Shown here: piece by piece, positions 12,036-57,975 of the stretch
How positions within the stretch are numbered: position 1 is the stretch's first letter
How the letters are laid out: each line of letters opens with the position of its first letter
Origin: Ulota crispa
Lineage: Eukaryota; Streptophyta; Bryopsida; Orthotrichales; Orthotrichaceae
DNA length: 64,000 nt
Reading direction: 5' to 3'
Assembly (NCBI GenBank): GCA_963920765.1
Contig: OY987243.1
Span: 8,060,001-8,124,000, forward strand
Notes under the pieces: model-generated
Told to the model about the DNA's origin: nothing
The model's database searches: none
What the model saw: the letters and a program-made list of their open reading frames with translations, nothing else
Translations under genes and position numbers: made by a program

Positions 12036-12446
12036 TCAGCCATGAGTCGGATAAAAACAATCTTCGAAGTGATACATGTCCTCGGTCTCTGGACTTTTAC
12101 CATGACCTTCCCCAGTGCTTGCGTCGTGAAGAGGCTCAGGCTCGGTAGAATCTGAGTCCAATAGTGCAGGAGAGTTCTCGTCACCAAAATGATATGCCTC
12201 GTCATCAAAATGATATGCCGAGGCCACACGGGACGTCGGCCTTCGATCTGAGTTGCATTTGGGGCAGTTCGGTCCCTGGCAGTAATGATTCGGGGTTCGT
12301 ATGGAATCAGGATAAAAGACCACAGACTTTCTGTTACAGTATGGGTGAGGACAGGATCTCCCGAGGCAATGGTGTGCACCGGGTGTGGCATCAGGGTGTG
12401 ACACCGGAAACCAATTCTGCTGAGCAGTTCGGGACTCCATGATCAT
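12036..12446 (-). CDS. Cys-motif protein 1 (unknown family), 136 aa
   Basis: I do not recognise this protein. The start chosen is the ATG of MIMESRTAQQ. Two Cys/His units lie in the N-terminal half: HPD...HHC-LGRS-C-PHPY-CN and YPD...HYC-QGPN-CPK-CN. They match units in the predicted genes at 53 kb and 57.5 kb. The C-terminal half is acidic and low-complexity, with three YHF-(D/G/E)-D/E repeats (AYHFDDEA, AYHFGDE, MYHFEDC). No signal peptide or membrane helix is visible. A TATA-like stretch lies about 175 bp upstream. Spaced Cys and His suggest metal binding, which is inference. A frame just downstream (to 11942) holds KVSC-like sequence faintly resembling part of the 57.5 kb protein, so an unseen intron or frameshift at the 3' end is possible. 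Confidence 0.5.
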   Translation of the reverse strand: MIMESRTAQQNWFPVSHPDATPGAHHCLGRSCPHPYCNRKSVVFYPDSIRTPNHYCQGPNCPKCNSDRRPTSRVASAYHFDDEAYHFGDENSPALLDSDSTEPEPLHDASTGEGHGKSPETEDMYHFEDCFYPTHG

Positions 12447-12620
12447 CAATGCTCGGAGAACTCAGGAACTCAGGATCGAGGTCACAAGGCACTGGATTAT
12501 TGCAAAAAATTCAAGCGAAGCTATGCCGAATAAGAAGCCAAAACTCACAGCAGCCAAGGGATTGAGCACTGATGAAAGCTGCAGGGATGGCTGATGAGGC
12601 TCAAGTGCACATTGTAGCCT

Positions 12621-12627
12621 GTATATA
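12621..12627 (-). promoter_or_regulatory. Possible TATA box for Cys-motif gene 1
   Basis: Read on the minus strand this is TATATAC, about 175 bp upstream of the chosen ATG. Such stretches are common by chance in AT-rich DNA. Confidence 0.3.
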
Positions 12628-12639
12628 TGTGTTTTGAAT

Positions 12640-13500
12640 CTGTTTGCCCCGACATCACAAGCTGGTGATGACTAGACTATGGGTTGAATGAAATTGCACC
12701 AGTCAATCATTTTCAATGCAAATTACTCTGTAGCGGACCAGTCCTCCTTTCACACCGCACGGTTGTGAACACACTTGGGACGCTTTCCGTTGCTCGAAGG
12801 AATTGGTATGGATGTCGTTTCTGGTGTTGACTATTGGTTCGATCAATTGTCTGGCAGCACGTCAACCTATCATTATCGCTCAAACTAAGATTTTGTGCGT
12901 CTCGAAAGGTAGTGTGAAAAGTCTGTAGGTGAATTGTTCTTGGACATGGTAGGTAAGAAGCTCCTGCAAAGCCTTACCGAAGGATATGGTAGGTAGAAAA
13001 GAGAGCAAATTTGGATTGTTCAGCACATGAGTTCTGGTGGAAATCATGGAAGTCAACGGGGTGAATTGTGTTTTTGGTTAGAAGCGTTCTTCCAGAATGA
13101 ACATGATCACAGTGAAGGATCAATTGCTTCGATATACGTGGTCGCTGACCTTGAATCTTCGGCCCTACAAAATTGTTCACACTTTCCCTTTTGGAAATGG
13201 CGCCCATGTCAGGCGTCCGTCGCTTTGACTGAGCTAGCTCCTCGCCTCCTTCCGACTTGGAAGGGAAGTGGTTAATCTTGCGAGGCGCTAGAGGCATCGA
13301 TGGTCACGGCTAGTCGGCATCCGTCGGTAGGACTTTTCGGTTGCATGGTTCAATGAGAAAATTCTTGAAAAATTCTTCGCAGCATTGATTCACGTGAATG
13401 CGAAAACACGTGAGAGATTATTGTACGAGGTCTGAATGGACATGCTGTACAATTGGCTCGCTGCCTGGTTCACACTGACAGAAAAAGCTTCCGATTCACG
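12640..13500. other. Intergenic with overlapping uninformative ORFs
   Basis: Moderately GC-rich for this window. Opposed frames at 12974-13297 (-) and 13027-13275 (+) overlap and neither shows a domain. No repeat family found here covers it. It could be an eroded gene. Confidence 0.4.
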
Positions 13501-13620
13501 CTAGATCATTCAACTCTTGGTCGTCGCGCACTAGATGTAATCCAGGGTTGACAGAGGTTTTTTTCTTTACTAAACGCGGGGCCCGTCTCCACCTTTCCCA
13601 GAATCTCCTCTTGCCCTCTA
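13501..13620 (-). repeat. Inverted-repeat partner of 15061-15175
   Basis: The complement shares GGGAAAG, GCGTTTA-TAAAG, CTCTGTCAAC-CTGGAT and TCTAGTGC in order with 15061-15175. Similarity is roughly 80% by eye over about 80 bp. Family unknown. Confidence 0.6.
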
Positions 13621-13660
13621 CGTGTACCCCAAGCTGGAAAACTTCCTTTTTACTAACAAA

Positions 13661-13925
13661 AACACCATATTCGATAATTTGGGAGCTATGTTCAAATTTG
13701 GGACTTCTGAAAGTTTAAGTGATCACCTTAAACCCAACTTTAGGTTTAAGCAACTTTTTGTTTGGTACACTTGCCCTCACCTGAGAGGAGGAATTTGCAA
13801 GGGAAAAAATCTTAGTGGCTCAAATTGAATATGATATCTTTGAATTTAGTTTAAGGTAACTTTTTAAGTTTAAGGTGAAGTTCAATTTGGGAACCGCCTT
13901 TTCCCAATTTAATGAATATGGCGTT
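13661..13925. mobile_element. MITE-B, TSD CAAA
   Basis: Starts AACACCATATTCGATAATTT and ends CAATTTAATGAATATGGCGTT. The 4-bp duplication CAAA is exact (13657-13660 and 13926-13929). It contains the conserved AGAGGAGGAATTTGC and AAAAAATCTTAGTGGCTC core. Confidence 0.9.
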
Positions 13926-13962
13926 CAAAGCCCAAAAATCTTCTATTTTGTAGTTTTCTTTT

Positions 13963-14357
13963 GAAAAATTGATATATACACACCCGGGGTTTGATATATG
14001 CGCACGGGGGGAAATTTTACATATTCATCATCATCAAGTTGAATTTGAAAAATTAGGTTTCACGTTTGGATTTAGAGACCTTGATTTTGTCTAGAATCAC
14101 AAAGGAAGATACAATTGAACAACGCCCATTGAAAAAAGCTTAGCTAAGGGCAAATTGTTACTTTTACCTTTATTTGTAAAAAAAGCAAAACTCTTCCAAT
14201 GGGTATTATTGAATTGTAACCTCCTTTGTAGTTGCAATCTAAAGCCATGTCTCTAAATTCAAACTTTCCAAATTTAGCTTGCCAATGGTAAATATATAAT
14301 TCCCCCATGTATGGGGTATGAATGTGTCAAATCTTGGGTGTGCATATATCAATTCCC
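13963..14357. mobile_element. MITE-D copy 1, foldback
   Basis: Outer ends AATTGATATATACACACC and its diverged complement TGTGCATATATCAATTCCC. The arms mirror each other around about 14160 (AACGCCCATTGAAAAAAGC against CTTCCAATGGGTATTATTG). It aligns with the copies at 20540 and 62780. Confidence 0.75.
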
Positions 14358-14392
14358 TTTCTCTTTTTACCAATTTTACCAATTTTGATTGA

Positions 14393-14693
14393 AATGTCAT
14401 ATTTGTTAATTTGGGCAAAAGTGTACAAAGTGGGACTTTTGGTTCTTTTTTCCAAAAAATGCCATATTCATTCAATTGGGAGTCCGTTGATTGTTTTCCA
14501 ATGAAATGAGATTTATATCTTCCAAAAATATGCTCTTTTTGGACAAAAAGTTTATTAAGTTCTGAAATTTTGGACAAAGTTCATTACCTAGGTTTGAGGT
14601 AACCTCCTCAATTCAAATTGAGGTGGCTATTTTGGATTAAGGTGAGGTACAAATTGGTACCTCTATTTTTCCCAGTTTACCTAATATGGCGTT
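14393..14693. mobile_element. MITE-B, long subtype, TSD TTGA
   Basis: Starts AATGTCATATTTGTTAATTT and ends CAGTTTACCTAATATGGCGTT in 301 bp. TTGA is duplicated exactly at 14389-14392 and 14694-14697. It is the sister of the copy at 8149-8481. Confidence 0.85.
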
Positions 14694-14702
14694 TTGAGGT
14701 AT

Positions 14703-14958
14703 AACACCATATTCATTATAATGGGAAATTGGGCACCTCTCAAAATAACCATGTTGATCTTGACCTAAATCGACAATTTTGTTAAAAGTAGAGTTTTCAG
14801 TTGATTGACATAAAACCTTCTAATTTTAAATCAATTTTGAAAATTTTTATTGCAATTTAGCTTGACTTGATATAAATTGCAATAAAACCTTTCATCAAAT
14901 TTCCTTTCAACTACCTCTCAATTCAGTGAAAATCTCCCATTTTAATGAATTTGGTGTT
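14703..14958. mobile_element. MITE-B, ACCTAAA subtype, TSD GTAT
   Basis: Starts AACACCATATTCATTATAAT and ends TTTAATGAATTTGGTGTT. GTAT is duplicated exactly (14699-14702 and 14959-14962). The interior differs from the main type and resembles the copies at 34399 and 40104 (GACCTAAA and AACCTTTCA blocks). It lies only 9 bp from the preceding copy. Confidence 0.85.
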
Positions 14959-15060
14959 GTATGCTATCTGGGGTCTTTGAATCCGAATATGAACTCGAAA
15001 TCTCCAATTTCAATTTACCATGATATATGTCTTATTTCCAGCGTTGACTAAAAATTCTGA

Positions 15061-15175
15061 ACTTTTTCACCCCGGGTCCAAGGAATTCGGGAAAGACGGC
15101 CCTGCGTTTACTAAAGAGAAACTCTGTCAACGCTGGATCGCTTCTAGTGCAAGACCAATCCTGCGACTCCGACGG
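15061..15175 (+). repeat. Inverted-repeat partner of 13501-13620
   Basis: The more GC-rich member of an inverted pair about 1.4 kb apart. A minus-strand open frame (15032-15328) covers it but shows no recognisable domain. The pair may be the ends of an older element now filled with MITEs, or two independent copies. Confidence 0.55.
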
Positions 15176-15712
15176 GACCCTAGCTCGTCTCTCTGATCTT
15201 CTTGAGGCAAAACATGAATGATGTTCATCAGTTCCAAACTTCCAACTGACATGAGCTCCATCGAGGAAACTGCTGGCTGGAATGCCTGCAAGAAAGCTAA
15301 TTGTAGCTACTCCGACTAGCTCGTCCACTTTCAGTTTAGCAACTTGTATCGCTTGACTAATGACTACTGTAGCTGAGCAGAGCTAGCTGAGGGAGGAGAC
15401 TCATGGAGAAGCTAGCTGGGACTGAGTGACTGACATCTGTCTAAAAGGCTTTCTTTCCAAATTGGTGGTAAGACTACGAACTCGTTTCAATTACGCGTTC
15501 ACACGTGAGAATATGCGAGACTTGGGAGACGCAAGTACGTAGTACGTACACAGGTCGATCGACGAGTAAGTGAATTCTGCATGTGCAAGTCGTTGAGCAA
15601 AATGTTCATCATGTACGTGTGATGAAGTCAGGAAGTTGCATTCAACGTTTCCTTCCCGACGATTTTGGAAAGATTGTTGGCACTAGATCCTAGAGATAGC
15701 TTCTACTAAAGC

Positions 15713-15962
15713 GTGGAAAACCCTACACTAAATACTGCTTTTAGGTTGCCCCACACTAATTCCCATATCTTACACTTTTACTAAAAAAACAAGTTTTAAA
15801 GGGCCTTGCAACCACTACAAAGCTGCTACAGAGAAAATTAACAAGGTTCCAGTTGTAAACCATGTGAAATCCAAGCATGGTCAACCATTAGTGTGGGGCA
15901 ACCTAAATGTAATATTCAATGTAGTTACTAAATAACACAGTTTCCAGTCTCGGTTTTCCAGT
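15713..15962. repeat. Imperfect inverted-repeat element
   Basis: TTTAGGTTGCCCCACACTAAT (split across 15741-15762) is mirrored by ATTAGTGTGGGGCAACCTAAA near 15889-15910. Outer TGGAAAACC and GGTTTTCCA also pair. This looks like a foldback MITE of which only one copy is in the window. Confidence 0.6.
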
Positions 15963-16965
15963 TGCAACTCTGCTTGATTTTTCTCCAATTTTGCTACTTC
16001 TAATGGTAAGAATTAGTACTTAAGATTTCAATACAAAGACAAAGATGGAAAAACATTTCTTCCACTTTTCCGTAACTCTGAACCCCCAGATGACGACCCG
16101 TAATCTCTATCAGAACTCACACAGTGTAATTGTGGAAAGGAATTTATTTGTGATCAGTCTTGAACAACCGCTAGATCGGTGGTGGACGTCGTGCTCTGGT
16201 TCTAAATCTAATCATGTTGTTAATTAAAACGGGTTCATTCATAGTTTTCAGTCATCTTAGATTAACTTTCGATTGATTTCTCGTTAGTTTGAAAATAATT
16301 GGTGCGCTAGGTGAAATTATTTCACTCCAGACATGGCTCCTTCGCCGTCCATACCCACTACAGCGCCATGTCCTCTTACTACTCTTGGCCATAGTTCGTC
16401 GGTAAGGTGTTTTCACGGGCTCCTTTGGGCAAGTAATTGGAGAGTGACACGTGTCACATTGTCAGAGTATGGGAGTGTCAGTTCTCTACTCATACAGAAT
16501 ATTTTCGAAGCTATTATTTTGACGTCAATGAACCCTAAGGGCATCATCAACCCAGCAGTCCAGCACCCAAAACGATTCACCAAATATATTGCTATCTTTT
16601 GCCTGGTCTAAAAGTAGAACTTATGATTACTGTTGTTGGATGCATATATAAAAATACTTCAAATAACTAACAATAAATGGAAATTGGAAATTGTACAATA
16701 AAAATGAAGTCCATTGAAAAAAGCTAAAAGTAAAAAGGGATGGGCAAATCAAGTTCTAGAGGGAGAATTCATGGTAATAACACATTAAATTTAGAAAGTT
16801 TAGAGTGTCATTATCTTAGATTTTCTTTCTTTGGCATGGTTTGCTCTATTGATTTTATTTTGGATTTTTTTCAAGGGGAAATTACAAAATGAGTAACAAA
16901 AACAAAGGAAATTACAGTTTGGGTAACGATTTGAAAGTAATTACAGTTTGGGTAACAAAATCCAA
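15963..16965. other. Intergenic, no gene seen
   Basis: Short open frames at 16045-16227 and 16333-16611 have no domain and no homologue elsewhere in the window. 16880-16960 holds a short direct repeat of a TTACAGTTTGGGTAAC phrase. Confidence 0.5.
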
Positions 16966-17212
16966 AACACCATATTAGGTAAAGTGAGAAAAAAGGTATA
17001 ATTTAGGACTTTCAGACTCGCTTTCAAAAGTTTGAGGTGATCACCTCAAACCAAGCTTAGAGCACACATGTCCTCACTTGAGAGGAGGGATTTGCGAGGG
17101 AAAAAATCTTAGTGGCTCAAATTGAATCTAATACCTTCAAATCTAACTTTTGAGTTTGGGGGGGAAAACAAAGTGGGACACCCTTTTTTCCCAATTTACC
17201 TAATATGGTGTT
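16966..17212. mobile_element. MITE-B, TSD CCAA
   Basis: Starts AACACCATATTAGGTAAAGT and ends CAATTTACCTAATATGGTGTT. CCAA is duplicated exactly at 16962-16965 and 17213-17216. 247 bp with the standard core. Confidence 0.9.
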
Positions 17213-19422
17213 CCAATAACCTCAATGGATTTTGCAATTGTCAAGGGTGCAAGCCATTGAAGCCGGCATAGACGCCAATGCCAACTCATCATTGGTCATA
17301 ATCCTTGTACTCTCAGTTGCGACCCATTTAGTAGCCAATGTTTGCTAAACAAATGCAGATTGCACAATATCAAGAAGTGATCACTTACCTTTTGCTCACA
17401 AGTACTACTTCAAAACTTCAACCTCACACGTTCATTGGTTGCATCTCACTCATGGACGTGCATCGCTCACTGTGTAATTGATAAATTCTTCAAAAAAAAA
17501 ATGCCGCCACCTATGCTTTTCTAAGTGAATTGGGAATAGGGACTATGAACTTAGCAAATATAGTAGAATGAAGCTATAAATTCCCGTTTATCAGCCTCTC
17601 TACCAATTTGATTGTGGGAAATCACTGATCCTTCAGACTTAGTGCATACATGCATATTTTAGACCATGGCTTTCACTGCATTTCCAAAAACATTGAAAGT
17701 AAAATCTCTGGTTTGGGGCTGTAATTGCTACCACATCTTTGAGCTGGAACCCGGCCACCAACCAATCACGATGACCCTGTGACACTTTTGTTTCTTGCAA
17801 CCTAATTCTTTTGGTCAATTTTATGCCAAAATTCTACCTCACTGTGGCACTGGTTACACTAACAAATATGCAATGAAAAAATGAATCAAATCACCAAACC
17901 TTGAAATTCCGTTCAAACAAACATTAAGTTTGCCAATACTTGGATGAAAACTATCGACAATAGCTGACTTTACGGATGGAAGTGCGCACAAGGGCAATTC
18001 CGTCCTTTAATTTAGAATGCGTGTAGCTCCACCTATGAAACAAACACTTTTGCTAAGAACTACTTTATGTGTGTAGCACTAGCTTGCTTTTCAAGTAAAG
18101 TACTTGCTCAAATTTCCTTAGGGTAGCTTTTCTTCAAGTAAAGCCTCCCTACTTCATAGTCAACCAAAATAAATTGGTTTATTTTTATTGTGAATTTAGG
18201 GGTGGTTCACACTACTTCCTAGGTACCCATCTTTTCAAGACCCATCTCAATGCCAAATCTCAACATATTAGTGGGTGTCAAATCTTTTGTTTTTTAAGGT
18301 TTTGGAATAATTCTATCCAAAAACTTTCTGAAAGTTATGGGGTGGTGGTTGAAGCACAAGCTGCAAAGCTACCACCCTTGCAAAGCTTCACAAACCACTC
18401 TACTTGATGACTCTAGTGGGTTCCCCTCCGTAACTCCTTCACATTGGTTGGTGTGAGTCTCAACAACGAGGACGACGACGTTGCAGAGTCATATAACTCT
18501 CTTTCAAAATAGTCCATAACTCCCTTAAATTATCAAGCACCACTAGAGGTGGGTCATAAAGTTACACAAACTCAGAACTCCAAAAAGTGGTTGAGTTACG
18601 GGGTAAACCTACCCAAAGTTGTGGGGAAGAAAACAAGAAGTTTGGCACCCACTATTTGGGTTACTAAAAGCAAAGAGGAGTATTGAAGAGATTCATGAAT
18701 CTTTTATGCAAAAATATTGGTGGGACTTGGGTTGAAAGTTGGATTTAGGAAAATGGTTAACCCAAACTTAAAATGAAATTCCACCATTTCTAACGTCAAA
18801 TTTTTCAAAAATTGTTGCCATGCAGACAACCAAATTGTAAGACTTGAAATGCAGTGTAAAATGCCAAATCCTAACTTTTGGCTTTACACCAATCAGATTC
18901 ATAAATTTCAATGGGACTTGGGATGTGGGACATAGTGTAAGTGTGAACAACCCCTGAATCCCATTTCTGGTCTCCTTGAATGTCAAAGCAGTTCTCTGCG
19001 TTTTGAATCCGTGTTCATGGTGTTCCCTCACATCTCTGGTGGTAAGTCTAGTTGAATTCAACGTTCAGGGTTTTGATTCCTCAATTCCTTACAGACCAAG
19101 CAGTCAACTTTTGAATGCTGGCTGAATGTTAGCAAGTCTCATGCATACAGAAATTTGGTTCTTTACTCATCTATATTAAGAATAGCATTCAGTCAGGGTC
19201 GGGCATGATTAGGAGAGGGTTGGGCATGATTGAGATCATAAAATTACAAATGGATTAAAGTAAAGTCACATACGGTTTCACTAAACGTTAACAACAGGGC
19301 ATTGGCAATTGTACCATCATTAGAAAATTGCTTATGGCTTAACTAAATGTTAACATCAGGTCATTGGCAGTTGCAATGTCATTGGCAATTGCATCACAAC
19401 TTTCTCTCAGCCAAAAGAGGGC
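17213..19422. other. Long gene-less stretch
   Basis: AT-rich, with many in-frame stops on both strands. Open frames at 18174-18407 (+) and 18768-19061 (-) lack domains. Near 19297-19395 there is a degenerate direct repeat of a TAACATCAGGTCATTGGCA phrase. Confidence 0.5.
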
Positions 19423-19800
19423 ACAGGGATAGGGAACACAAGGATAGGAGGCACAACGATGGGGGCATGGGGATAGGGGGCACGGGGATAGGGGAGCATG
19501 GGGATAGGGGGCATGGGGATAGGGGAGCATGGGGATAGGGGGCATGGGGATAGGGGAGCATGGGGATAGGGGGCATGGGGATAGGGGAGCATGGGGATAG
19601 GGGGCATGGGGATAGGGGAGCATGGGGATAGGGGGCATGGGGATAGGGGGCATGGGGATAGGGGGCATGGGGATAGGGGGCACGGGGATAGGGGAGCATG
19701 GGGATAGGGGGCACGGGGATAGGAGCACAAGAATAGGGCATGGGGATAGAGGGGCACAGGGATAGGGGACATAGGGATAGGGGGCACAGGGATAAGGGGT
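19423..19800. repeat. G-rich minisatellite, 15/16-bp unit
   Basis: About two dozen tandem units alternating GGGGGCATGGGGATA (15 bp) and GGGGAGCATGGGGATA (16 bp), with CAC and ACAGGG variants towards both edges. All three minus frames stay open through the array and give Pro/Ile/Met-rich repeats, an artefact of the repeat. The plus strand carries very regular G4-G5 runs. Confidence 0.95.
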
Positions 19801-20011
19801 GGGGGGCACAATCTTGTCGATACAACGGGTAATATACTAGTTTATGATAAATGATTAATTTCAAGTGTTGGTATTCTAGCATTTGTTTCATATAGATCTC
19901 CAAAGCTTTTTGCTACAAATATTTACTTGTTTAAAACATGTAAACATGTTTTACATAAAAAAATTTAAAAATCCGTTCAAAAGATAACCTTTAAAAAATC
20001 ATCATTAGTAA

Positions 20012-20275
20012 TATACTATATTCATTAATTTGGGAAAATTTGTACATTTTGGAACTTTCAAATTTTGAGGTGAAAGTTTGAGGTCTCCTCAAACCTAGCT
20101 CGCACATTTTTTTTACACGTGTCCTCACCTAAGAGGAGGCATTTGTGAGGGAAAAAATCTTAGTGGTTGAGACTGAATCTGATACCTTCAAATTTAGTTT
20201 AAGGTAACTTTTTGGTTTAAGGTGGAGAACAAAGTGGGACACCTGTTTTTCCCAAACTCTAACAAATATGGTGTT
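20012..20275. mobile_element. MITE-B, degenerate left end
   Basis: Left end TATACTATATTCATTAATTT and right end CTAACAAATATGGTGTT. The standard core is present (AAGAGGAGGCATTTGTGAGG, AAAATCTTAGTGG). No clean target duplication could be read. Confidence 0.82.
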
Positions 20276-20539
20276 TATAGTATAATCTTGAAATAAATCA
20301 CTACAACTAAGAGTTAATATCATAAACTTAAAGGAAGAAACCGTTGTGAAAATTGTTGAATTTCAATCCTCGAACGCTTTATGAAGGTATTTGAATTAAT
20401 TGATTCAAGTCTTATTGAAAAATGTTGATATGTGCAATGGTAAATCCAATTGTATGGTTGTGTTCTATGATTCCTAGTCTAAAGCTTTTCTACATAGGTA
20501 GTTGCATAGCAGTTCTTTTGGATTACACATTGACACATG

Positions 20540-20936
20540 GGGGATTGATATGTATACCACACCCTTTCAAGTATTGTACCACATCCCGGAGTAAATTTTA
20601 GAGTTGAATTTGAGAATTTGGAATTCAAATTTGGACTTAGAGACCATGATTTTGTTTAGAATCATAAAAAAAGGTTGTAATTGAACAACACCCAATGAAA
20701 AAGCTTAGCTTGGGGTAAAAGTGTTACTTTTACTTTTGTTTATAAAAAAGATAAGCTTTTTCATTGGGTGTTGTTCAATTAGAACCCTTTTATGATTTTA
20801 GACTAAATCACGGTCTCTAAGTCCAAATCTAAATTCCAAATTCTCAAATTCAACTACTTGATGGTAGAAATCTAAAATTTACCCCAGGGGTGTGGTACAA
20901 TACTTGATAAGGTGTGGTAGACATATCAATCCCCTT
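20540..20936. mobile_element. MITE-D copy 2, foldback
   Basis: Ends GGGATTGATATGTATACCAC and GTGGTAGACATATCAATCCC, with ACACATG on both sides. The arms are long mirrored copies around about 20740 (ACACCCAATGAAAAAGC against CTTTTTCATTGGGTGTTG). Confidence 0.85.
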
Positions 20937-27968: not shown

Positions 27969-29021
27969 TTATACAAAAAGATGTGAAGTAGTTGGTTCTT
28001 TGCAAAACAATTGAGACTTACTACGAGCAAAGTCTATAACCAAATTTAGCCAAGTTCTAAATCAACAATTTTTTGTAAGATAAGGTTCTTTCAAAAATCA
28101 TACCAGTGAAATTTGTTGACATTTTTTTTCAGTAAAGTGCTTTGCCTTTTAGTCAGATTTGATATTTCATGCTAGTGACACAACACGTATATTAAACTTC
28201 TCGACAATCTAGCCGACAAGAACCCAAGACATGGTTTCATATAGACAAGAGTGTTAAAATGGACAAGCTTACCTAGTGCATTCATGCAATAATGCACCCA
28301 ATGTACCCACAATAAATGGTGATTTTAATGGAAGTAACAATTAACATACAACACTTCTAACCAGCTTAAGACATCACATCCACCAATCTAAAAAGTAGAA
28401 TGTCAATCATAAACAACCATGCTAAAACACATATTTATCTAAATAAAGACAAGCGCAGTTAATCAATGCAAAATCAAATCTTTATATTATCTTGCAACAA
28501 ATTCTGCTTAGTCCAAAGTTGTCACCATGGAACAACACTAGATTCTAACAGATAGAAACAACATTGAAAGTGTCCAATTAGCCATACACCATTCTAGATA
28601 GGCAACTAGAACAAACCTTCCCGACATGTAACAAACGTTTGCATGTCATTATTGGGGAAACAACTATTATAATGCTCAGTAATCTAAGCATTGTATAAAT
28701 CCAACCTCCAAGCACGCAGGTCAAAATTAGAGGACATAACCATACACTAGCAAGCACAACTTGCAGCAAATGAAAATCAAAATTCATCGCCACTTGCTGC
28801 TGCCAGATCGACAGACATGGCGATACTAGAACCATGACTTAAGATCTGTCATGCTAAGTCATGTCACCGTTGGACTGGTTTTTGCAATCAGGATCATCAC
28901 AAGGAAAGGTAATGCACTTGTGTACAGGCTCTGCATCTCCATCAATGGGATTGTCCTGCATCTTGCAGATTTTCTAGGTTGGGAACTGTGGCGCTTCCGT
29001 AGCATCCGGTCTGTAGCATCC
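27969..29021. other. Gene-less stretch
   Basis: No supported coding region and no repeat family found. An 85-residue minus frame at 28578-28835 is hydrophobic but shares nothing with known families that I can see. Confidence 0.45.
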
Positions 29022-44876: not shown

Positions 44877-44880
44877 TTAA

Positions 44881-47400: not shown

Positions 47401-47610
47401 GGTTTGTTGGTTGTCCCATATTGATTGGCGCTCGGGTCGGGGTGAATTACTTTGGGTACAAAAAGGACCAAATGAGAGCTCAAAGAAATACATGACCTCA
47501 TTTCTTTCTAAGTGACAAATCTACACTAGGAGCAATAATTACACATGTTCATTAGATTGGGAAAAACACTTTCCCAAAATGTATTTTGGAGATACCAAAT
47601 TTAAACCAAA

Positions 47611-47858: not shown

Positions 47859-47952
47859 TAGAATACGTTACAGTTGTACCTACTATTGTAATATAGTGCC
47901 TGTTTCTTGGACTAGTGCAAGTTGGTGTCGTTAGTGCTGGGTGTAGATCCCA

Positions 47953-48684
47953 GGGTGGCAACTGGCAACTCTTGTATAATGTGAAGGGGGGACAGTTCTA
48001 AGAAGGGTAAAAAGAGCTGTATACTTCAAATTTAAGAAATTACTATAACCTCAAAAGAGCTTATAATAAATCTTTTATAGGTAATAATGAAGTTTTAACA
48101 CTAGGATTCTTAGAATTATTTTTAAAAGACTATTTAAGAAATAATAAATTTTAATCCTTTCAAAAATGAGCTGAGGGGTCTATGTGGTGCTACTTGTTTG
48201 AGAAATTCTTTGTACTGTAAGTTTTTGAAATGACTTTTGAGAACTCAAATTTTTTATGATTAGTATAAAAATGATACCATTTGAATCCACTCAATGTCTT
48301 CTTTCTTACTAACATGTTCCTGTAACCTACTTAATAAAAAAATTTATTCCCTTCTTGTACATTAGAAGGGTTAAGAAAACCCCTGAATATCATATTTGTT
48401 AAATTGGGAAATTTGTTTAAATTTGGGACCTTTGCAAGTTTAAGGTGATTACCTTAAACCAAGCTTTAGGTTTAAGCAACGTTTTTTTTGGTACACGTGT
48501 CCTCACCTGAGAGGAGGAATTTGCGAGGGAAAAAATCATAGTGGCTTGAACTAAATCTAGTACCTTCAAATCTGATTTATGGTAACTTTTTGGGTTTAAG
48601 GTGAAGTTCAATTTGGAACCGCGTTTTCCCAATTTAACGAATATGGCGTTCCTGTCTTTGGATTGTGAGTTGCCACCCCGGGAG
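47953..48684. mobile_element. K element copy 2, split by MITE-B
   Basis: Ends CCAGGGTGGCAACTGG and GAGTTGCCACCCCGGG. The interior matches copy 1 (AGAGCTGTATACTTCAAATT, AGGTAATAATGAAGTTTTA). It is interrupted at 48386-48650. Confidence 0.8.
48386..48650. mobile_element. MITE-B, TSD CCTG, nested in K
   Basis: Starts AATATCATATTTGTTAAATT and ends AATTTAACGAATATGGCGTT. CCTG is duplicated exactly (48382-48385 and 48651-48654). K copy 1 shows the uninterrupted AAACCCCTGTGTTTG, confirming the insertion point. Confidence 0.93.
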
Positions 48685-49337
48685 TGCAGACGCGCAGTAA
48701 TTGAAATGACTTCTACAGAAATCCCGGAATGCGGGTGTTGTACCAATTTATTGAATATGGAGTTCATGAGATACAAGTAGTATTGTAGGGAATGCCATGC
48801 TTTGGCAATAAGCAAATTATGCATATAAAGTTTGCCGGTAAAAAGAATGACTGTTCCCAGCAAAGGGTGGTGCCGCTATGCCTCTTCATTGCAGCGTCCT
48901 GGAGGTAGGCGCGAGCTGATCTGGACTACTAGTCACTGTTACCCACGCCGGTGGAGTGACTGGATGGATCTGTCTGCATGTACTCTAGTGAATCACCGAA
49001 ATACAAAAACCACTTTAGATTGGAAAAATTGATTCCCTAGAGCCGCAAAGTAGGTTCAAGCAATGTTCTTCTCGGACTCGTCTACCATTGCAGTAAAGGA
49101 GGTTACAACTAAAAATCTGCCTTGCTTATTTGATGTATCACCAATTCACCGTGCATGTTGAATCACAACCACTTGATGACGAAAAGAAAAAAAATTCAGT
49201 TTTTCATGATTCTGTAACGAGTACGAGAGGACTACTCCAGGATATGCCTCTACTTATGTTAGAAAGCAACAACGGAGCCACAGACTTCTAATCAAATATG
49301 CAATGTCCTTACCAATTCTGAACTTCAGCACCGTCAA

Positions 49338-49772
49338 TTGACAGGCTGGCTTGGAGCCTGCCTGCCTGCCATACAAGCTTGCGCTGAATCTACTCGAGCG
49401 GTCCTGAAGGTCTGGCAGGTTTGCGGGCTTTCAAGATATATGGTAGAGCCTAATTTAAACACGTTCCCCTCACATGTCTCTTTTCATCTTACCACCTGGG
49501 GTCCCAACATCATCACAATGACACAGATTGAATGTGACCGTGACAAGTGTGCTCCATTCTATGATAGTGTACCAAGTGAACCGGATTTTGTCGAACTTCG
49601 TCTCAGAGACATTTGTGCAGGATTTAGAGGGTCGCTGAAGTTTTCATACATTCACACTGTGAATGTTTTGTACAGTCAATCATCTGAAATAACTTTCAGT
49701 CTTACACCACGCACGTTGAATGCAGTCTGTAAAACCAACCGAAAGCTACGCCCCCGGAGCGGCCGGTTCTGA
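49338..49772 (+). CDS. Unrecognised ORF, 144 codons, doubtful
   Basis: The longest plain frame between the MITE arrays around 49 kb. No domain is recognised. It has seven Cys including IECDRDKC and no low-complexity bias. Base composition is more balanced than its surroundings, which is the main reason to keep it. The first third, before residue about 48, looks less protein-like. It could be an exon, an eroded gene or chance. Confidence 0.22.
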   Translation: MTGWLGACLPAIQACAESTRAVLKVWQVCGLSRYMVEPNLNTFPSHVSFHLTTWGPNIITMTQIECDRDKCAPFYDSVPSEPDFVELRLRDICAGFRGSLKFSYIHTVNVLYSQSSEITFSLTPRTLNAVCKTNRKLRPRSGRF

Positions 49773-49957
49773 TGCATATGCTACTTGTACTAGCTGTGGT
49801 GCTGAAAGTCTTTTAGCCCCGCTTTCAACGTGGGAGTTTGCAGAATATGGTATTACAGGTGGCCATAAAGTGAGCGCCTCATTGACGCACTGACGTCATG
49901 GCGTGACATGGCTGATCTGTACTTTTTAACTCATTGCAATGGGGTAATATAACTGCT

Positions 49958-50219
49958 AACACCATATTAGGTAAATTGCAAAAAACTGAGAGACCATTTT
50001 GTACTCCAGCTTAATCTTACATACAATAAATGTAGACATAGACATAGCTATAGCTCAAAGTTGTAATTTTTTGAATTTTTGAAGGTACCAACTCAGGCTT
50101 CATTATTGTACAAGAAAGTGCACACTTGTTTTTTCGTAAAGTGCTAAATTATACAAAATGACAAAAATAGTGAAATTCTTAGAATGTATTGTTTTTCCCA
50201 ATTTACCTAATATGGTGTT
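49958..50219. mobile_element. MITE-B, TSD TGCT
   Basis: Starts AACACCATATTAGGTAAATT and ends CAATTTACCTAATATGGTGTT. TGCT is duplicated exactly (49954-49957 and 50220-50223). The interior has diverged from the common core. Confidence 0.88.
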
Positions 50220-50249
50220 TGCTGCTACCAAATCATATAGTAAAACAAA

Positions 50250-50574
50250 GAAAAATTTCATGGATATCCCTAAAGTTTGCCATATTTTCATAGATGCCTT
50301 GCTTTTTCAGAAATATCACAAATACCCTTGGACCCAAAAACTTAGGCGTTTGTTTTGTTATGCATGCCACTTGCCCACTTCCCTTCTTTTGTTGTGCACA
50401 CTCATAACAAGAAAGAAGTAGTGTGCGAACAGAGAAAGAAGGAATGACATGCATAACTAAACAAAAGCCCAAATTTTTTGGTTCAAGGGTATTTCAATTT
50501 TTGTGATATTTCTGTAGAAGCGAAGGTATCTATGAAAATATTACAAACTTCAGGGGTATCCATGAAATTTTCCC
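50250..50574. mobile_element. MITE-A copy 4
   Basis: Left GAAAAATTTCATGGATATCC, right GGGGTATCCATGAAATTTTCCC in part. TAAAACAAA lies on both sides (9 bp), pointing to a Mutator-like target duplication. Starts 30 bp after a MITE-B. Confidence 0.85.
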
Positions 50575-52260
50575 TTAAAACAAATGAACTATGATGGAGC
50601 CAAATCGGGCCGTCATGTTTATCTGACTCGTAGAATGCAATCAGCTCACTTTACGATGCAACTGGAGCTCAAAGGATATAGGTCTGCCGCGCAATTAGAG
50701 CAGGTCGTGACGTTTATTTCAACCTTCCCACCGACGATCAGAATCTAGAAAAGTGGGCAATGACATGTGGCGCAATATGCTTGGTGGTATTAACTATTAA
50801 GTGCATACGAGAGTAGCGCTACCATATTCTAAAAATTGGTCATAGAAATTGACACCCAAACTGATAATCAGAAGCATAGAATTCGAAGTTAGGTTTTGGC
50901 CTTCGCTTTGGAAATTTGAGAACTGGAGGTGTGGACCTGAGAACTGGACCAGATCTAGACCCATCAAGCCCTGACTTTTAGTCCGTAATTTTCTGGAAAA
51001 GTTGTTGAATGATACTTGCTAGTGATCTATCTGTTAACCGGATGTTAACGAAGTCATTAAAGTGGCCACAATCCAAGAGATTATCACTTTTCCAGCGTCT
51101 CTCCTACACCTCACGTCTACCTCATTCCTAGGAAGTAGAGCTTTAAGCATATTATTGAATTTCACAATTTTAGCTCTCCAATATTCCTAATATGACCATA
51201 TCGGTGAATGTAGTGCATGGTACAAAATGCCGAATCACTCCCTCGATGTGAACTTCAAGTAATTTGTGCAACTTCATCTAACTTGTACCACTGATCATGT
51301 TCAAACGGAGTCAAACTGTTAATAAAAGGCCTCATTAAAAGAAAAATGAGCTCAAGAGAAGGCCCTCAAGAGAAGGCCCTCAAGCCCGCCCTCAAGGGAG
51401 GTGGCTACAAGGGTCAGAAGCATTTAAACATTATGTCCTTTTTCAAATAAAAAGAGATTAATGCCCTATACGTGCTTGCAAGTTGCAACTCATGAGTCAT
51501 GATGTAGTATTTCATGAGGATAATTTATTTTTACAATATTATATTGTCTTTGTTTGATGAGTGTCCTTGTTTGATTGGGAATTCTAATTGTAGTTCATTC
51601 TTGTATCCTATTAGAGATCCTTGCATTAGTGATTGTCATGTTATAATATTGCTTTGCATCATCAAATGATTTTATCATGTAGCATGGTACATTTGAGTAC
51701 TTCACACAAGATAGACTAAGACCCTTATGTAAGTACCTTATCTATGCTTCTCCTACCTCAATAAATATGGTAATGTGTCAAGATTGGAAGGTCTTCTCTT
51801 GAGCTCATGTTTCCTCTAATGCTGAGTCCGATATTCTAATTTCGACTGGGGTTAACCGGACGGCCAGCTTTGCACCCGGTGCTCACAACTTTAGCACCGG
51901 CAGATTCTTACTAAGGTTCGGTTGAAGGCCATTGTCCAATTTCAAAGTAGAGTCAACAAAGCTACACAAAAAAACAACTGCAAAGCATATTAGAAATCGT
52001 GAGGCACTGGTTAAACAATGAGTTAATTATGGCGATACGAGCCAAGCTAGCTATGATCTTCTCTAGCAGTAAGTTAGTAAACTGAGGAATAATCTCCAGA
52101 ACGTCCTCTGTAACGTGTCTCGCCCGCCTTCTTGGCCTTCCTCGTTTCCGCTCCTGGATAACAGTGGTCAATCATGTCATATCTGGTTAGTGCGGTAGAT
52201 AGTATCCAGCTGCAGAGAACCGCCTTCTCTGCGCCGTACCGTATCGTAGCAATCAAGAGT
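50575..52260. other. Gene-less stretch
   Basis: No supported gene. A short tandem run of CTCAAGAGAAGGCC is at 51351-51405. Frames at 51962-52171 and 52074-52265 (-) overlap in different phases and lack domains. Confidence 0.45.
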
Positions 52261-52489
52261 AACACTATATTTGTTAATTTGGGAAAAACAGGTGTCTCAC
52301 TTTGTATTTCACCTTAAATCCAAAAAGTTACCTTGAAGGTACTAAATTCAGTCTGAGTCACTAAGATTTTTCCCTAGCAAATTTCTCCTCTCAGGTGAGG
52401 ACAAGTGTACAAAAAATGCTGAGCTCGGTAAACCTTCACCTCAAAGTCCCAAAATGTACCGTTTTCCCCAAATTAACAAATATTGTGTT
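52261..52489. mobile_element. MITE-B, TSD GAGT
   Basis: Starts AACACTATATTTGTTAATTT and ends AAATTAACAAATATTGTGTT. GAGT is duplicated exactly (52257-52260 and 52490-52493). It lies just upstream of Cys-motif gene 2 and may sit in its promoter region. Confidence 0.9.
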
Positions 52490-52573
52490 GAGTATTTTCA
52501 TATCCGGCCTGTCGAATCGAAGATCTTTCCCCTATGAGCAATGACGGCCTCTTTTTAATTAGTTTGTTGCTTT

Positions 52574-52581
52574 TATAAAAG
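52574..52581 (+). promoter_or_regulatory. Possible TATA box for Cys-motif gene 2
   Basis: TATAAAAG, a good plant TATA match, about 400 bp before the chosen ATG and 85 bp after the MITE-B. It would imply a long 5' UTR or an unseen upstream intron. Confidence 0.35.
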
Positions 52582-52981
52582 AGAGTTAACATAAGGAAAT
52601 CATTGCCTTCTGAGATGTAACATCACGTACAATTGTATTATAGAAGTCAGGGGTTGTTCTGCAATGCCTATACTTGCCGACGTTGCCGTCGATACGTATC
52701 CTGCATGCTAGCTCCTGATATTTCGGCTACCAAGGAATCTTTAAACATATATTTAGAGATTGAAGCTTGCTATGCAGTTTATTCTTGCTGTGTTGTGCCG
52801 TCTTAGTTCCAAACCCTCTGTTTCTCGTATGGAATCGGCAGACCGCACTGGAGCTTCCTTTCCAGTTCATGCTTGATTATGTTTGAATCATCGATTTGTA
52901 GTCCGCTGTTCGTTTGGTTTTTATCGGCTTAGAGTAAGAGCCTGGTGTAGCAACTCACTTGGAACGTTTCATCTGTGCCTA

Positions 52982-53428
52982 ATGATCATGTTGCGGAAAG
53001 ATTGTGTATCCAACCAAGGGTTAGACGGGCAGAATAATGAAGCAGGAGGATCTGAAACGTCTGTCCAGCATGCTCCAGAACCGTCAGCAGCTCCAGTTGG
53101 TGGAGAAAGCACCGTCGAAAGCTCCCCTCCGAGCAGTTCCAGTGCTTCTCACGGCGAGAATCCACCAGGAGCTCCGAGCCGTGACCCCCACGTCTGCAAA
53201 GAATTTCCGTGCCCGATATGCAACCCGAACCGCGACCAACAGCAGGAGGAGACCTTTCGAGTAGTCGAGCAACATTCACTCAGACCAGCCGCAAGCACTC
53301 AGAGTACTATCTTTCGTTCTGATCCCGAGCGCCAGCAAAACATGGAAGTATCTGAGTCCGAGGATAATTTGCAGCTGGAAGTTGCAACCGGTGCACAAGG
53401 TCAGAAACTCAAGGATCACTTAGTCTAA
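52982..53428 (+). CDS. Cys-motif protein 2 (unknown family), 148 aa
   Basis: No family recognised. The chosen start gives MIMLRKDCVSN; the same ATGATCATG opens Cys-motif gene 1, which supports both starts. Upstream in-frame sequence back to 52883 has no ATG. One Cys/His unit lies near residues 68-85 (RDPHVC-KEFP-CPI-CN). It is preceded by a Ser/Pro/Ala-rich stretch (SSPPSSSSAS) and followed by a Gln/Glu-rich acidic tail. The protein looks largely disordered, without membrane helices or signal peptide. The unit FPCP-x-C is closest to those of the 57.5 kb gene. Codon use and GC stand out from the AT-rich surroundings, as for a real gene. Metal binding through Cys and His is inferred only. Confidence 0.55.
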   Translation: MIMLRKDCVSNQGLDGQNNEAGGSETSVQHAPEPSAAPVGGESTVESSPPSSSSASHGENPPGAPSRDPHVCKEFPCPICNPNRDQQQEETFRVVEQHSLRPAASTQSTIFRSDPERQQNMEVSESEDNLQLEVATGAQGQKLKDHLV

Positions 53429-55310
53429 GTGGTAACAGTTTGTAGAAATATAGAACTTCATTTTCCTGGAGTTTTATGCATACTGGAGCAGTTTTTATGT
53501 GTAGAATCTGTACAATTATAGCTTTTATGTAGAGCCGGCCAGCCGGGTACGGTGGGGATCTTTGTAACTGGTAGGGGTTTGTTAAGTGGCTTTCCAGTTT
53601 CCAGTCGTATGTCAATATCTATCGTGTTACCACGAGTGAATTTTGATAATATGAGTGTCAGAATTGTACGTGCAACCTGTAGTCAGTGATTGTGTAGTGC
53701 ACTCGAGGTCTCTCTTGAACAAATGGGTTTGTGTAAAGGAGCTGAATTATTTCGGAATTATATACTATACTTCGACTCCCAAGTATTTTACACTACGTAC
53801 TTACTGAGAATCAGTGATCCTGGATACTTAATATTCCAGCATCCAACCAATTGTTGAAATCTCCACAGTCACCGAGTTATTGAGATATTGCCGCAGTGGT
53901 GTCCATGTATTTAGTCTGCCCAGAAGAAAATGAACCGTCCTCCCATACTGGCAGAATGACACCGTCTTTTAGAACTGATATGATGCACTTCCAGTAAGTT
54001 ATGTCACAATTGGGAGCAGGTGCTTAGAACAACTCGGTTCTTATGACTTTACTGCAGAACCCATAATTAAAATAACAGAACTATATCATTTGGTTCTGTT
54101 CTAACAAGTTACAATTACACTAGTAATGTCATTAATGTAGTTTCGACTTTCAACACGTTGCTAAGATATGATCCTTCATCCCTGGAATGTTGTTACAAGT
54201 GTAGTCTTCAGTTGCAGCTCGTCCGGTCGTCCCACTTGTGCATAGAGAGTACGTGTAAGTATGCTTCTCTACCCTAGAGGTGTATGTATTCTGACAGTGT
54301 CAACTAATGTATCCTTTGGAAGGACCATTACTAGCTCTAGTATAAAGGAAAGAATGATTGTCAGATAGCAAGAAAAAGCATATACATGAGGATTTCCATA
54401 TCTTGAGTAAATGTGCTAAGCGTTATTCTGTTTATGCTGTATGTATTGCAACAGAGAATGAGTAAGTCATCAATCACTACCAGGATTTCAAGTGGGTGTG
54501 CAAAGTTTTGGTAGAGAACGAACTTTGTGCGGTGTACGTGCTTAAGCATGTACCAAAATGTCATTCAGTATAGTAGGTAGAACTTCAATTTCAGTTTAGT
54601 TTAAATGGCTGTATTGCCTGTATTCCGGGGTCACTTTCACAAGGGAGAAAACAGAATGAGAAGAAAAAGTTGTGAGAAGAGAAGAGGGGTACAACCGTGG
54701 CTTGAATTGCAAGATATGTAGGCAGTTCTAGTAAGCATGCACAGTCCTTAAAATTTCCACTTCAACACTTCTTCTGACCAGTTACCTCCAAATTATTTAT
54801 CGATTTTTACCATCTCTTCTAGGTCCCTAGGCCATTTTTGAGGAATACGCTACTTCAACGAAATTGATATTACAGTGTTGCTGAAAAGCATCGCAAACCT
54901 TCCTACGGAGTAAATAATACTATTAAACTCACTGGTTTTAAGTGCCAGACGAAACATTCTTGAATGGAATAGAGACTTGAGCAAGCAACGAGTGATGTTG
55001 TCTTGGCTGATAGTTTCCAATGAATGTTCTTGTGCAGTAACTATAGTCTGTATCTACAGCATCATTGCTTCTACTAGAAACAGCCCCTCACGATTAAGCA
55101 GCACATTTATGTAGCACTACGTAGTGCTCAAACCTGGTCACATTGGAACTGGACTTTCCGGTCTACTTGACCTACGACTTGACAGTCAATAATTCGGTGT
55201 GTGTTGAAATTCCTGTGCACTCCGACGTTTGCGTTGGTGCTCTCAAAGGTCTTCTTACTGCGACCGGCTGTCTGCAAATCCGCTAATAATTGTACTTCCA
55301 AAGCAACTTG
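53429..55310. other. Gene-less stretch
   Basis: It presumably starts with the 3' UTR of Cys-motif gene 2. Remaining frames (for example 54361-54564 minus) have no recognised domain and no repeat family was found before 55.3 kb. Confidence 0.45.
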
Positions 55311-56052
55311 TCCTAAAGGCCCAAGCACTGTTTTTTGGCAACACAGCGATTTTGGGCAGCTCACTACAAGTGGACCTTTCAATCTTTTTTTTGGAATTTT
55401 CACACATGATTTGTCCAAAAAATAGCTTTAAGGTCCACCAATTTTCATAACTTTTGACTACATGATTTAGAAGTTATTGCATGATATGTTGTTTTTTTAA
55501 AACTCTGGGCAACTTGAGCAGCTCAAAAAACTTTATTGAAAATTGCATTTTTTTAGTTTTTTTTTTGGAATAGGTTCTTTAGACTTATATGAATATGGGA
55601 AGCTTCCAATTGTTCCATTTTGATTGATGAAATGAAAGTTATGAGAATTTTTAGTTTGCCAATAGGTATGGAGTCTCTCAAAAGTCAAACCACGCCTACC
55701 CGCAAACTAAAAATTCTCTTATCTTTCATCTCATAAATTAGAACTAAATGATTCAAAGCTTCCCACGTTCATATAAGTCTAAAGAACCTATTCCAAAAAA
55801 AGAAACTAAAAAATTACAATTTTAAAAGAAGTTTTTTGTGTTGCCAGATTGCCTAGAGTTCAAAAAAAACAACATATCATGCAATAACTTTTAAACCATG
55901 TAATCAAAAGTTTTGAAGATTGTTGAACCTTAAAGCTACTCCTTGGACACATCATGTATGAAAATTTCAAAGAAAGAAGATGAAACATCCACTTGTAGTG
56001 AGTTGCCCAAAATACATTTTATCTCCCGAAGGGACAAGTGGGCTTTTAGGGG
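55311..56052. mobile_element. FB-C copy 3, complete foldback
   Basis: Left CCTAAAGGCCCAAGC, right GGGCTTTTAGGGG followed by TTAA; the left TTAA has decayed (CTTG). Almost the whole 742 bp is one hairpin centred near 55682, with the same CTTTAGACTTATATGAATATG and ATGATTCAAAGCTTCCCAC blocks as copy 1. Confidence 0.85.
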
Positions 56053-56816
56053 TTAAAGAAATATATAACTGTCTCAAGAATTGAATGCAGGCGCTTATAA
56101 GTTTATAACCAAATCACTAAGTTGTATTTAATTTTATAAAGATTTAGCCCATCAATGTAAAGTTACTGCTTTTTTCATTTATTGATAAAGAGAGAGCCAA
56201 AATGATTCTAGTGTATCAAACTTAGTGTCTTAAATACGCAAGTTTGTAATACAACAGTTTCGCTTCTAGCAAGTTAACAAGGTTTTTATGTACTATAAGG
56301 ATTCTTCTCTCAAGTCTAGTATACTCTATACCTTAGTCTTTATTTTTGATAATAACACTAAAATAATACAAAAGATGTGTTGTAAATTTGTAAAATAATA
56401 TTATAGCATCCACGTACACAGGTACACTACCTTAAATGTGTTAATTGTTGGACATATGAATTTTTGAAGTGAAGAAGTGAGTACATGAAATTATCTCTTG
56501 AAAATATGTGCAAACTTATTTAGAATTCAATGATCCAATATTTGTTTGATAGTATCGTCAGTCATGACTGGTCGATCAAGAAGCACTCGCGTATATAACA
56601 CTAACAAAAGCGTCATTTCAAATGACCCAGAGTCCCAGGCCAGCATTACGTACAATCATACATACACGGGATACGATGCCACTCTTCCCCCGAGGAAAAA
56701 TGCAAGCTTCTACATTCAAATCACTGGCTGTAAAAACATTGACTAAGTCTTATTTCTTACGTACAATCAGCGATGCAAGTATGTAACTTGATACCAACGA
56801 ATGACCAATTCTAGCT
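56053..56816. other. Gene-less stretch
   Basis: AT-rich to about 56.5 kb. A 66-codon plus frame at 56546-56746 is followed by a stop and has no recognised domain. Confidence 0.45.
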
Positions 56817-57102
56817 AACACCATATTAGGTAAATTGAGAAAAACGGATGTATCATTTTGTAGTCCACCTTAAACTCAAAAAGTTATCTTAAATCAGATT
56901 TAAATCAGATTTGAAGGTATCAGATTTAATCTAAGTAACTAAAAAAATTTCACTCTCAAATTCCTCCTTTTGTGAGAGCACGTGTACCAAAGAGCACGTG
57001 TACCAAAAAACACTGAAGCTCGGCTCGGTTTAAGATGATCACCTCAAACCTTCAAAAGTCCCAAAATGTACTCTTTCTTCCCAATTTACCTAATATGACG
57101 TT
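56817..57102. mobile_element. MITE-B, TSD AGCT
   Basis: Starts AACACCATATTAGGTAAATT and ends CAATTTACCTAATATGACGTT. AGCT is duplicated exactly (56813-56816 and 57103-57106). Two internal short tandem duplications (AAATCAGATT and CACGTGTACCAA) lengthen it. It lies about 290 bp downstream of Cys-motif gene 3. Confidence 0.9.
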
Positions 57103-57394
57103 AGCTGTAACTATTGTCACGAATTCTTATCAGTGTTTGATAAAAACGGTTCGACACCGGAAACGACCAGCAAGCGAGTCAGCTACCAAGCTAAACATAA
57201 GCTAGATTAATACTAGAAGCGACTCCTTGCCGTAGTCAACATACTTTCCTTCATGTGTCAAGATTGTCAAACTGGCGAATCTAATTTTGCAGGGTCGATC
57301 GAGGCTGTTTCAAGCTTGAAGGTCTTCACCAGATGTCACGTGAAAATAATTTCACAGCAGGCTCTTTCACCGCCGATGATTCATGTTTATGAAT

Positions 57395-57975
57395 TCACCC
57401 GCTACGATCATTTTTATGACAGAGGGGGCAGGGGAACTCCGGGCACTTGTGTCCTCCATCAGGATACGTAATCATCAGAGCAGAAAACACTGGGTTTGAG
57501 GAAATACGGTCTTCAGATTCGTATGTAATGAGATCAGACTTACAGTCGAAATTTTGGGGCGGCTACCTTCGGAGTCGGTGGAGATGTCCCTGGTGCTATG
57601 ACAGGTGGGGCAGGGGAAATAAGGGCATCTGTGTTCTCCATCAGGACATTCCACCTCTGGGACCATATGCTCGCTTTGACTCTTTCGGGGACTCTTTCTA
57701 CCAGAGACAACGAAGAAAACCTCAGGAGTAGCAGTGCAACTCGCTTTAGGACTAATTTTGTGAAGGATGGTCGTCAAAATGCGATCAATCTCCCTCTGAA
57801 AGTCTTCACCATTGCCGCTTTGGATCAATTCTGATTCCACTAATGGTGTTTGGTAATGAATACCGTCGACGTACTTAAGCAACGTGGCAAGCTCCGGCTC
57901 TCCATCTCCTTTCTCGTGGATTGGAGTTGATGACTCTGAGGTGAATGCCAATAGTTCCACAGCCATCATCCCCAT
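57395..57975 (-). CDS. Cys-motif protein 3 (unknown family), two near-identical units
   Basis: No family recognised. ATG at 57975 (MGMMAVELL). The uninterrupted frame runs to 57475 (166 aa) and holds one unit: CPDGEHRC-PYFP-CPT-CH. Just downstream, in another frame, a second unit nearly identical in DNA (YPDGGHKC-PEFP-CPL-CHKN) ends in a stop at 57395. A putative 77-bp intron, 57566-57490 (donor GTAGCC, acceptor CCTCAAACCCAG), joins both in frame to give 167 aa; a stronger-looking GTAAGT donor nearby would not. The N-terminal part (ATLLKYV, DFQREIDRILTTILHKI) looks helical. A TATAAATA lies about 160 bp upstream. The two-unit layout parallels the 12 kb gene, including the YPD before unit 2, which supports the spliced model. 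Metal binding is inference. Confidence 0.5.
57411..57660 (-). repeat. Tandem duplication of the Cys/His unit
   Basis: The about 55-bp blocks at 57421-57475 and 57599-57653 share CCTGATGGAG-ACACA, TTCCCCTGCCCC and TGTCATA in the same order on the minus strand. High DNA identity suggests a recent duplication. Confidence 0.75.

Follow-up and report, generated by a model that had tools for sequence, protein, structure and literature searches.

Three short open reading frames (ORFs) in a 64,000-nt stretch of the moss Ulota crispa (assembly GCA_963920765.1, contig OY987243.1, positions 8060001-8124000) encode proteins that carry a compact cysteine/histidine unit, raising the question of whether these units mark a genuine gene family and what such a family might do. 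We refer to the whole 64,000-nt stretch as the window, to its contig as C2 and to the three genes as L1, L2 and L3. Our analysis indicates that their products most likely belong to a real, fast-diverging family that is unnamed in what could be searched. This reading rests on the occurrence of the units far above chance, on further loci elsewhere in the genome, on recovery of the window units by a profile of outside members, on retention of all four presumed ligands, one His and three Cys, in 15 of 17 units, and on the lack of a credible match in sequence libraries.

A six-frame scan of the window for H-x-C-x4-C-P-x(1,3)-C returned exactly five matches (His codons at 12374(-), 12287(-), 53189(+), 57633(-) and 57451(-)), all within the three predicted genes at 12.0-12.4, 53.0-53.4 and 57.4-58.0 kb to which the first-pass annotation had assigned them. 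Sequences simulated under Markov models of order 1, 2 and 3 (150 per order) contained on average 0.013, 0.027 and 0.027 matches, respectively, with a maximum of one; the pattern was set post hoc, after the data had been seen, and with five units found against 0.013-0.027 expected we consider a chance origin ruled out. The C-P-x(1-3)-C spacing given earlier is corrected as follows: two residues separate the last two Cys in four of the units (CPxC), and four residues do so in the other (CPHPYC). At 10.1, 34.0, 42.6 and 46.0 kb there are looser HxC matches, in frames interrupted by stops and with similar flanking text, which were taken as parts of a repeat. A possible sixth, degenerate unit at 28.9 kb had expectation values (E) of 0.002-0.78 across the profiles that listed it, and as a protein query against the 274.8-Mb genome it matched itself alone. 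Just past the window, HICQSRPCLC near position 5774 of locus L055 (C2 8.124-8.134 Mb; E 0.033) is a possible further degenerate unit, which we excluded as unconfirmed.

The three ORFs have a G+C content of 48-53%, compared with 40-43% in their flanks and 46-60% in the exons of a neighbouring channel gene, and they encode hydrophilic chains (grand average of hydropathy -0.43 to -1.01). Behind its two units, L1 has an acidic tail with AYHFDDE-AYHFGDE, encoded by two 21-nt tandem copies at 12177-12218, and with MYHFED close to the C-terminus. Both units previously assigned to the third gene are present, but they lie in different frames and would form one protein only if an intron were removed. 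Three GT..AG candidates join the L3 units in frame, and 57566-57490 has the best-looking acceptor as judged by eye. Relatives at 30.10 and 30.14 Mb have their second unit shifted by the same two bases as in L3, which is compatible with a shared intron, the chance probability of such agreement being one in three.

Table 1. Coordinates of the Cys/His-unit genes, their units and their relatives on C2 (window positions unless given in Mb).
Feature	Location	Strand	Description
Gene L1	12036..12446	-	136-aa ORF if started at the first ATG, 134 aa if at the second (12440); two units
Unit L1a	12336..12395	-	PDATPGAHHCLGRSCPHPYC; H-x-C-x4-C-x4-C
Unit L1b	12255..12311	-	PDSIRTPNHYCQGPNCPKC; nearest to the first units at C2 3.55 and 0.50 Mb
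Possible sixth unit	28857..28973	-	HKCITFPCDDPDC; degenerate, 39-aa open frame; weak, variable score
Gene L2	52982..53428	+	ORF of 148 aa, Ser/Pro/Gln-rich; single unit
Unit L2	53189..53221	+	HVCKEFPCPIC
Gene L3, exon 1 (putative end)	57567..57975	-	Holds first unit; unspliced frame open to 57478
Unit L3a	57601..57645	-	PDGEHRCPYFPCPTC
Candidate intron of L3	57490..57566	-	GT..AG, 77 nt, phase 1; would bring both units in frame
Gene L3, exon 2 (putative)	57395..57489	-	Second unit; stop 7 residues past last Cys
Unit L3b	57419..57463	-	PDGGHKCPEFPCPLC; DNA 84% identical to L3a over 50 nt
Member	C2 0.5005 Mb		80 aa; NHICIGPGCPKC; second, C-terminal unit HSSCLPGANCPYCNKK
Member	C2 0.5106 Mb		110 aa; NHYCTGKGCLVC; C-terminal unit HRCRVLPCRICGRTW
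Member	C2 0.5222 Mb		111 aa; 69% identity to 0.5106-Mb member over 51 residues
Member	C2 3.5475 Mb		NHYCQGAGCPIC
Members	C2 30.104 and 30.135 Mb		Inverted pair; HRCKKFPCPVC is the first unit of both

Eleven protein searches of the genome (274,817,297 bases in 157 contigs) identified at least six loci outside the window, all on C2 (0.5005, 0.5106, 0.5222, 3.5475, 30.104 and 30.135 Mb). Member and locus counts are lower bounds because only the best candidates were scored, and absence from contigs other than C2 is not proved; among the matches listed, 28 of 30 rows fell on C2, and the rows on C7 (E 9.3) and C10 (E 0.85) were dropped. Rather than a local expansion inside 46 kb, as had been proposed, the members occupy four places on one contig (0.50-0.52, 3.55, 8.07-8.12 and 30.10-30.14 Mb). 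Two duplicated blocks were found, of 1.4 kb (74% identity) and 2.0 kb (89%). The latter is the inverted duplicate at C2 30.10 and 30.14 Mb (L014 and L015), inside which about 850 bp are nearly identical, as after gene conversion. Weak profile matches at C2 0.544-0.547 Mb, L011 (C7) and L033 (C10) were likewise excluded as unconfirmed.

Relationships among the members were traced through both single-sequence and profile searches. In the genome protein searches L1 matched the 3.55-Mb member (E 0.013) and L3a matched L3b (2e-4); the 3.55-Mb query found the 0.51-Mb (7e-6) and 0.50-Mb (1e-5) members and recovered L1 at 0.0014, while the 0.51-Mb query found the 0.52-Mb member at 1e-17. L2 protein queries matched L2 itself alone in the genome. 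The 30-Mb members were weak in single searches (E 0.055-0.085), and a profile of L2 and L3 found all but one of the four units that they carry, at E 1e-5 to 2e-5. Of the 11 outside units, 8 were built into a profile; against six-frame ORFs totalling 358,751 residues it recovered L1 at 5e-7, L2 at 3e-4, L3b at 0.0019 and, at 0.0037, the 28.9-kb unit. In pairwise alignment the L2-L3 score was reached in one of 3000 shuffles; by this measure the L2-L3 link appears solid, and the L1-L3 and L1-L2 links do not. L1 is tied to L2 and L3 mainly by the shared ligand pattern and by the genes at 0.51 and 0.52 Mb. Two sub-types can be told apart, NHYCxGxxCPxC (L1b and the first units at 0.5-3.5 Mb) and HxCxxFPCPxC (L2, L3 and 30 Mb), and in the 0.51/0.52-Mb genes the first unit is of one sub-type and the second nearer the other.

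The 17 units comprise those of the window, with the 28.9-kb unit included, and those outside it, with the out-of-frame second unit at 3.55 Mb excluded. Twelve are exactly H-x-C-x4-C-x2-C, two have a last gap of x4, one reads H-x2-C-x5-C-x2-C, and the remaining two lack a ligand. That Cys and His are conserved while most else varies, as first noted within the window, thus holds in further members of the same genome. The P-D pair does precede four of the five window units, but with four of 17 overall it fails as a mark of the family; the residue after the second Cys is proline in 11 of the 17. The start ATGATCATG fared similarly. It opens both L1 and L2, and the only other copies in the window are two that overlap on opposite strands near 60.25 kb, but genome-wide it occurs 949 times with an ATG within 10 nt against 637 for a reversed control, and we dropped it as evidence for a family. 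Of the eight members inspected, five (L1 and four from outside the window) had an ATCATGG start context, which L2, L3 and the 30.10-Mb member lacked, and TATA(A/T)A lay 155-234 nt 5' of the ATG in six of eight, a count for which no chance control was run.

Codon-level comparisons gave some evidence of coding. When the L2 unit is set beside the two units of L3, mismatches fall at 10 of 13 third codon positions, compared with 5 first and 3-4 second ones, and different codons encode the Phe, Pro and Cys residues that are conserved. Across four units (L1a was omitted because of its longer gap) the own frame was the best conserved of six, with a protein identity of 0.58 against 0.26-0.35. Four outside members with a common N-terminus had a nonsynonymous rate (dN) below the synonymous rate (dS) over 42-44 codons in six of six pairs, with ratios of 0.25-0.74.

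A number of observations weigh against the family reading or against selection on it. The outside profile scored L3a at 0.16, below its best unconfirmed match (0.011), and is not fully independent, since window sequences had been the queries that first turned up the outside members. The L1-L2 alignment score was reached by 414 of 3000 shuffles and the L1-L3 score by 43 of 3000, and L1 was not listed by the profiles of L2 and L3. Two of the 17 units have lost a ligand: at 0.5222 Mb the third Cys of unit 1 is Tyr, with unit 2 intact, and at 30.14 Mb the second Cys is Ser (HTCRQLPSPVC, the middle Cys gone, where its partner has HTCRQFSCPVC as its second unit). At 3.5475 Mb an apparent second unit, left out of the counts, lies out of frame next to a six-G run. 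Little third-position bias was seen in L1b against L2, L1b against L3a or L3b, or L3a against L3b. In the 0.51/0.52-Mb pair dN/dS over the whole ORF (110 codons) was 0.65 (NG86) or 0.82 (YN00), and in the C-terminal part including unit 2 dN exceeded dS (0.33 versus 0.28). In the 30-Mb pair dN (0.048) also exceeded dS (0.035), with 13 of 16 changed codons nonsynonymous and a ratio of 1.4 (NG86) to 1.7 (YN00) over 136 codons, a comparison confounded by the roughly 850 nearly identical bases. The synonymous/nonsynonymous comparisons came out both ways: the evidence for selection is mixed, and some copies are decaying.

We next consider whether the proteins belong to a family already named. Pfam was run on the window ORFs and on nine sequences from eight loci up to E 10, where HMMER filters drop most matches above about E 0.1; NCBIfam, a library built for prokaryotes, was run on the three window ORFs; and Protein Data Bank (PDB) sequences were searched with two profiles of the units and with the ORFs of L3 and L1, L2 alone not being a query. 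Within these scopes there was no credible match for the Cys/His-unit proteins, in line with the earlier statement that no named family has this spacing. DUF1431 on L3 (E 0.021, with 15.5 bits where the cut-off is 22), PilI (0.16), Thioredoxin_3 (0.19), PDB 6nps (0.25) and septin-2 (0.44) were taken as chance. No relatives were found in IMG/VR (L3 and a three-unit alignment), GTDB genomes (the three-unit alignment) or plasmids (L3); the three-unit searches of IMG/VR and GTDB gave 25 and 26 pattern matches, all failing tblastn, and these negatives weigh little for plants because the collections are viral or prokaryotic. Six unit strings had no full-text occurrence in the open-access literature searched.

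The units might nonetheless represent a known zinc domain, such as a TAZ loop, half a RING or IBR, or a C2HC finger, that has shrunk or diverged beyond recognition by profiles. In ligand layout the HCCC loops of the TAZ domain (CBP/p300 and plant BTB-TAZ proteins) appear nearest, having one His followed by three Cys, an x4 gap and a last gap of two to four. TAZ loops have x3 between His and the first Cys, whereas here the gap is H-x-C in 16 of 17 units and H-x2-C in one; the TAZ domain is a three-zinc helical bundle, and here one or two units sit in probably disordered chains. We did not assign the units to TAZ because of this first gap and because zf-TAZ was not listed by Pfam for the nine sequences. 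TAZ2 is described as binding three zinc ions via HCCC motifs (PMC12022988). No RING or IBR family was listed for either the window ORFs or the nine sequences. CPxC is a common zinc knuckle, and 10 of the 11 units with Pro after the second Cys share this C-P-x-C half with zinc ribbons and RING domains. They lack a second CxxC, however, its place as partner half being taken by the upstream H-x-C, and each has four ligands where a RING has eight in two sites. The best PDB match of a 12-unit profile was to the RING protein RNF126 (E 0.06), aligning the His and CPxC but not the first Cys, and we took it as chance, as we did a 10-residue zf-C2HC_2 fragment (E 0.032) under its cut-off. The CCHC knuckle of retroviral Gag is likewise a very short single-zinc unit of three Cys and one His, but its order is C-x2-C-x4-H-x4-C, whereas His is the leading ligand of all 17 units here, and the CCHC family was not listed by Pfam for the nine sequences. 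We regard a disguised member of these domains as quite unlikely.

A decaying family is a more serious alternative, if still a rather unlikely one. The units would then be what remains of a gene that once worked, now duplicated passively while ligands and frames are lost, as the Cys-to-Tyr and Cys-to-Ser changes, the out-of-frame unit at 3.55 Mb, the possible degenerate copy at 28.9 kb and the dN/dS ratios in two pairs (0.65-0.82 and 1.4-1.7) would suggest. Retention of the whole ligand set in all but two units argues against it, as do the N-terminal regions, with dN below dS in every pair, and the open frames of the window, which are longer than most in shuffles of the local 1.5 kb (stop-free runs this long in 5% for L1, 0.25% for L2 and 0.55% for L3; P 0.05, 0.0025 and 0.0055). 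Small, Cys-containing, fast-diverging and clustered proteins also recall plant defence peptides, secreted and held by disulfide bonds. With three Cys and a conserved His per unit, metal ligation would fit better than disulfides, and the best 15-residue hydropathy mean is below zero in L1 and L2 and in L3 reaches 1.05 at residue 78, not at the N-terminus (no signal-peptide predictor was run); the mildly hydrophobic stretch with which the 0.5-3.5-Mb members start qualifies this case, and we still hold secretion to be very improbable. We would be equally surprised if the units were part of a transposable element. Copies are dispersed on one chromosome, and both L2 and L3 have a short dispersed repeat nearby, at distances of about 490 and 290 bp respectively, but that repeat has more than 20 blastn matches elsewhere in the window and the duplicated blocks are 1.4 and 2.0 kb long. 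Neither the three ORFs, ten further ORFs of the window nor the outside members scanned matched any transposon family above its cut-off, so that the match to an annotated transposon protein named at the outset as a refutation was not seen, terminal repeats and target duplications around the copies not having been searched for; the one IS91 zinc-domain fragment (E 3) was taken as chance.

The explanation we prefer, and on balance think probable as a whole, is a family of zinc-unit docking proteins that has spread in part by local duplication and diverged outside its ligands. Its members would be small plant proteins of about 80-170 aa, hydrophilic and, by composition, probably disordered, with one or two compact His-Cys3 units, mostly H-x-C-x4-C-x2-C, the second of which ends the protein in several. 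Each unit probably folds round one zinc ion, as suggested by the ligand set and its fixed short spacing in hydrophilic chains, with H-x-C and C-P-x-C as the two arms of a minimal knuckle. Inside the cell the protein could then dock, with one or two valencies, to a protein partner or to a nucleic acid, paired units making it a bivalent adaptor. Local segmental duplication appears to account in part for how the genes spread along one chromosome; they diverged quickly outside the ligands, and some copies lost a ligand or frame. Birth, divergence and decay of copies seem to run together. Like plant lineage-specific (orphan) families, these genes are small, fast-diverging and clustered on a chromosome; they differ in keeping a metal-type ligand set while most else changes. 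A bolder version, speculative and in our view unlikely, is that H-x-C-x4-C-x2-C is a previously undescribed zinc fold of about 11-20 residues and a bivalent docking device, in a one-chromosome family diversifying rapidly as under conflict or self-recognition. A fixed ligand set amid a changing protein would offer a clean natural system for exploring the lower size limit of a zinc fold and the partner to which it docks, and the finding on one chromosome of duplicated and decaying copies would make a usable case for the spread and death of young gene families. If relatives in other plants bear another name, the finding becomes an ordinary one.

Elsewhere in the window, Rfam and tRNA scans were empty. 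A dispersed repeat of about 200-290 bp, at 52301-52495, 56813-57106 and more than 20 other places, has inverted ends in one copy and is probably like a miniature inverted-repeat transposable element. A long inverted repeat around 55.55 and 55.78 kb (55530-55860) was noted by eye, and a minisatellite at 19339-19912 (-) encodes PIPMPPIPM-type repeats in three frames. The potassium-channel gene at 620-8019, by which the window looks plant-like, has several exons and matches the Pfam Ion_trans, ankyrin and KHA domains.

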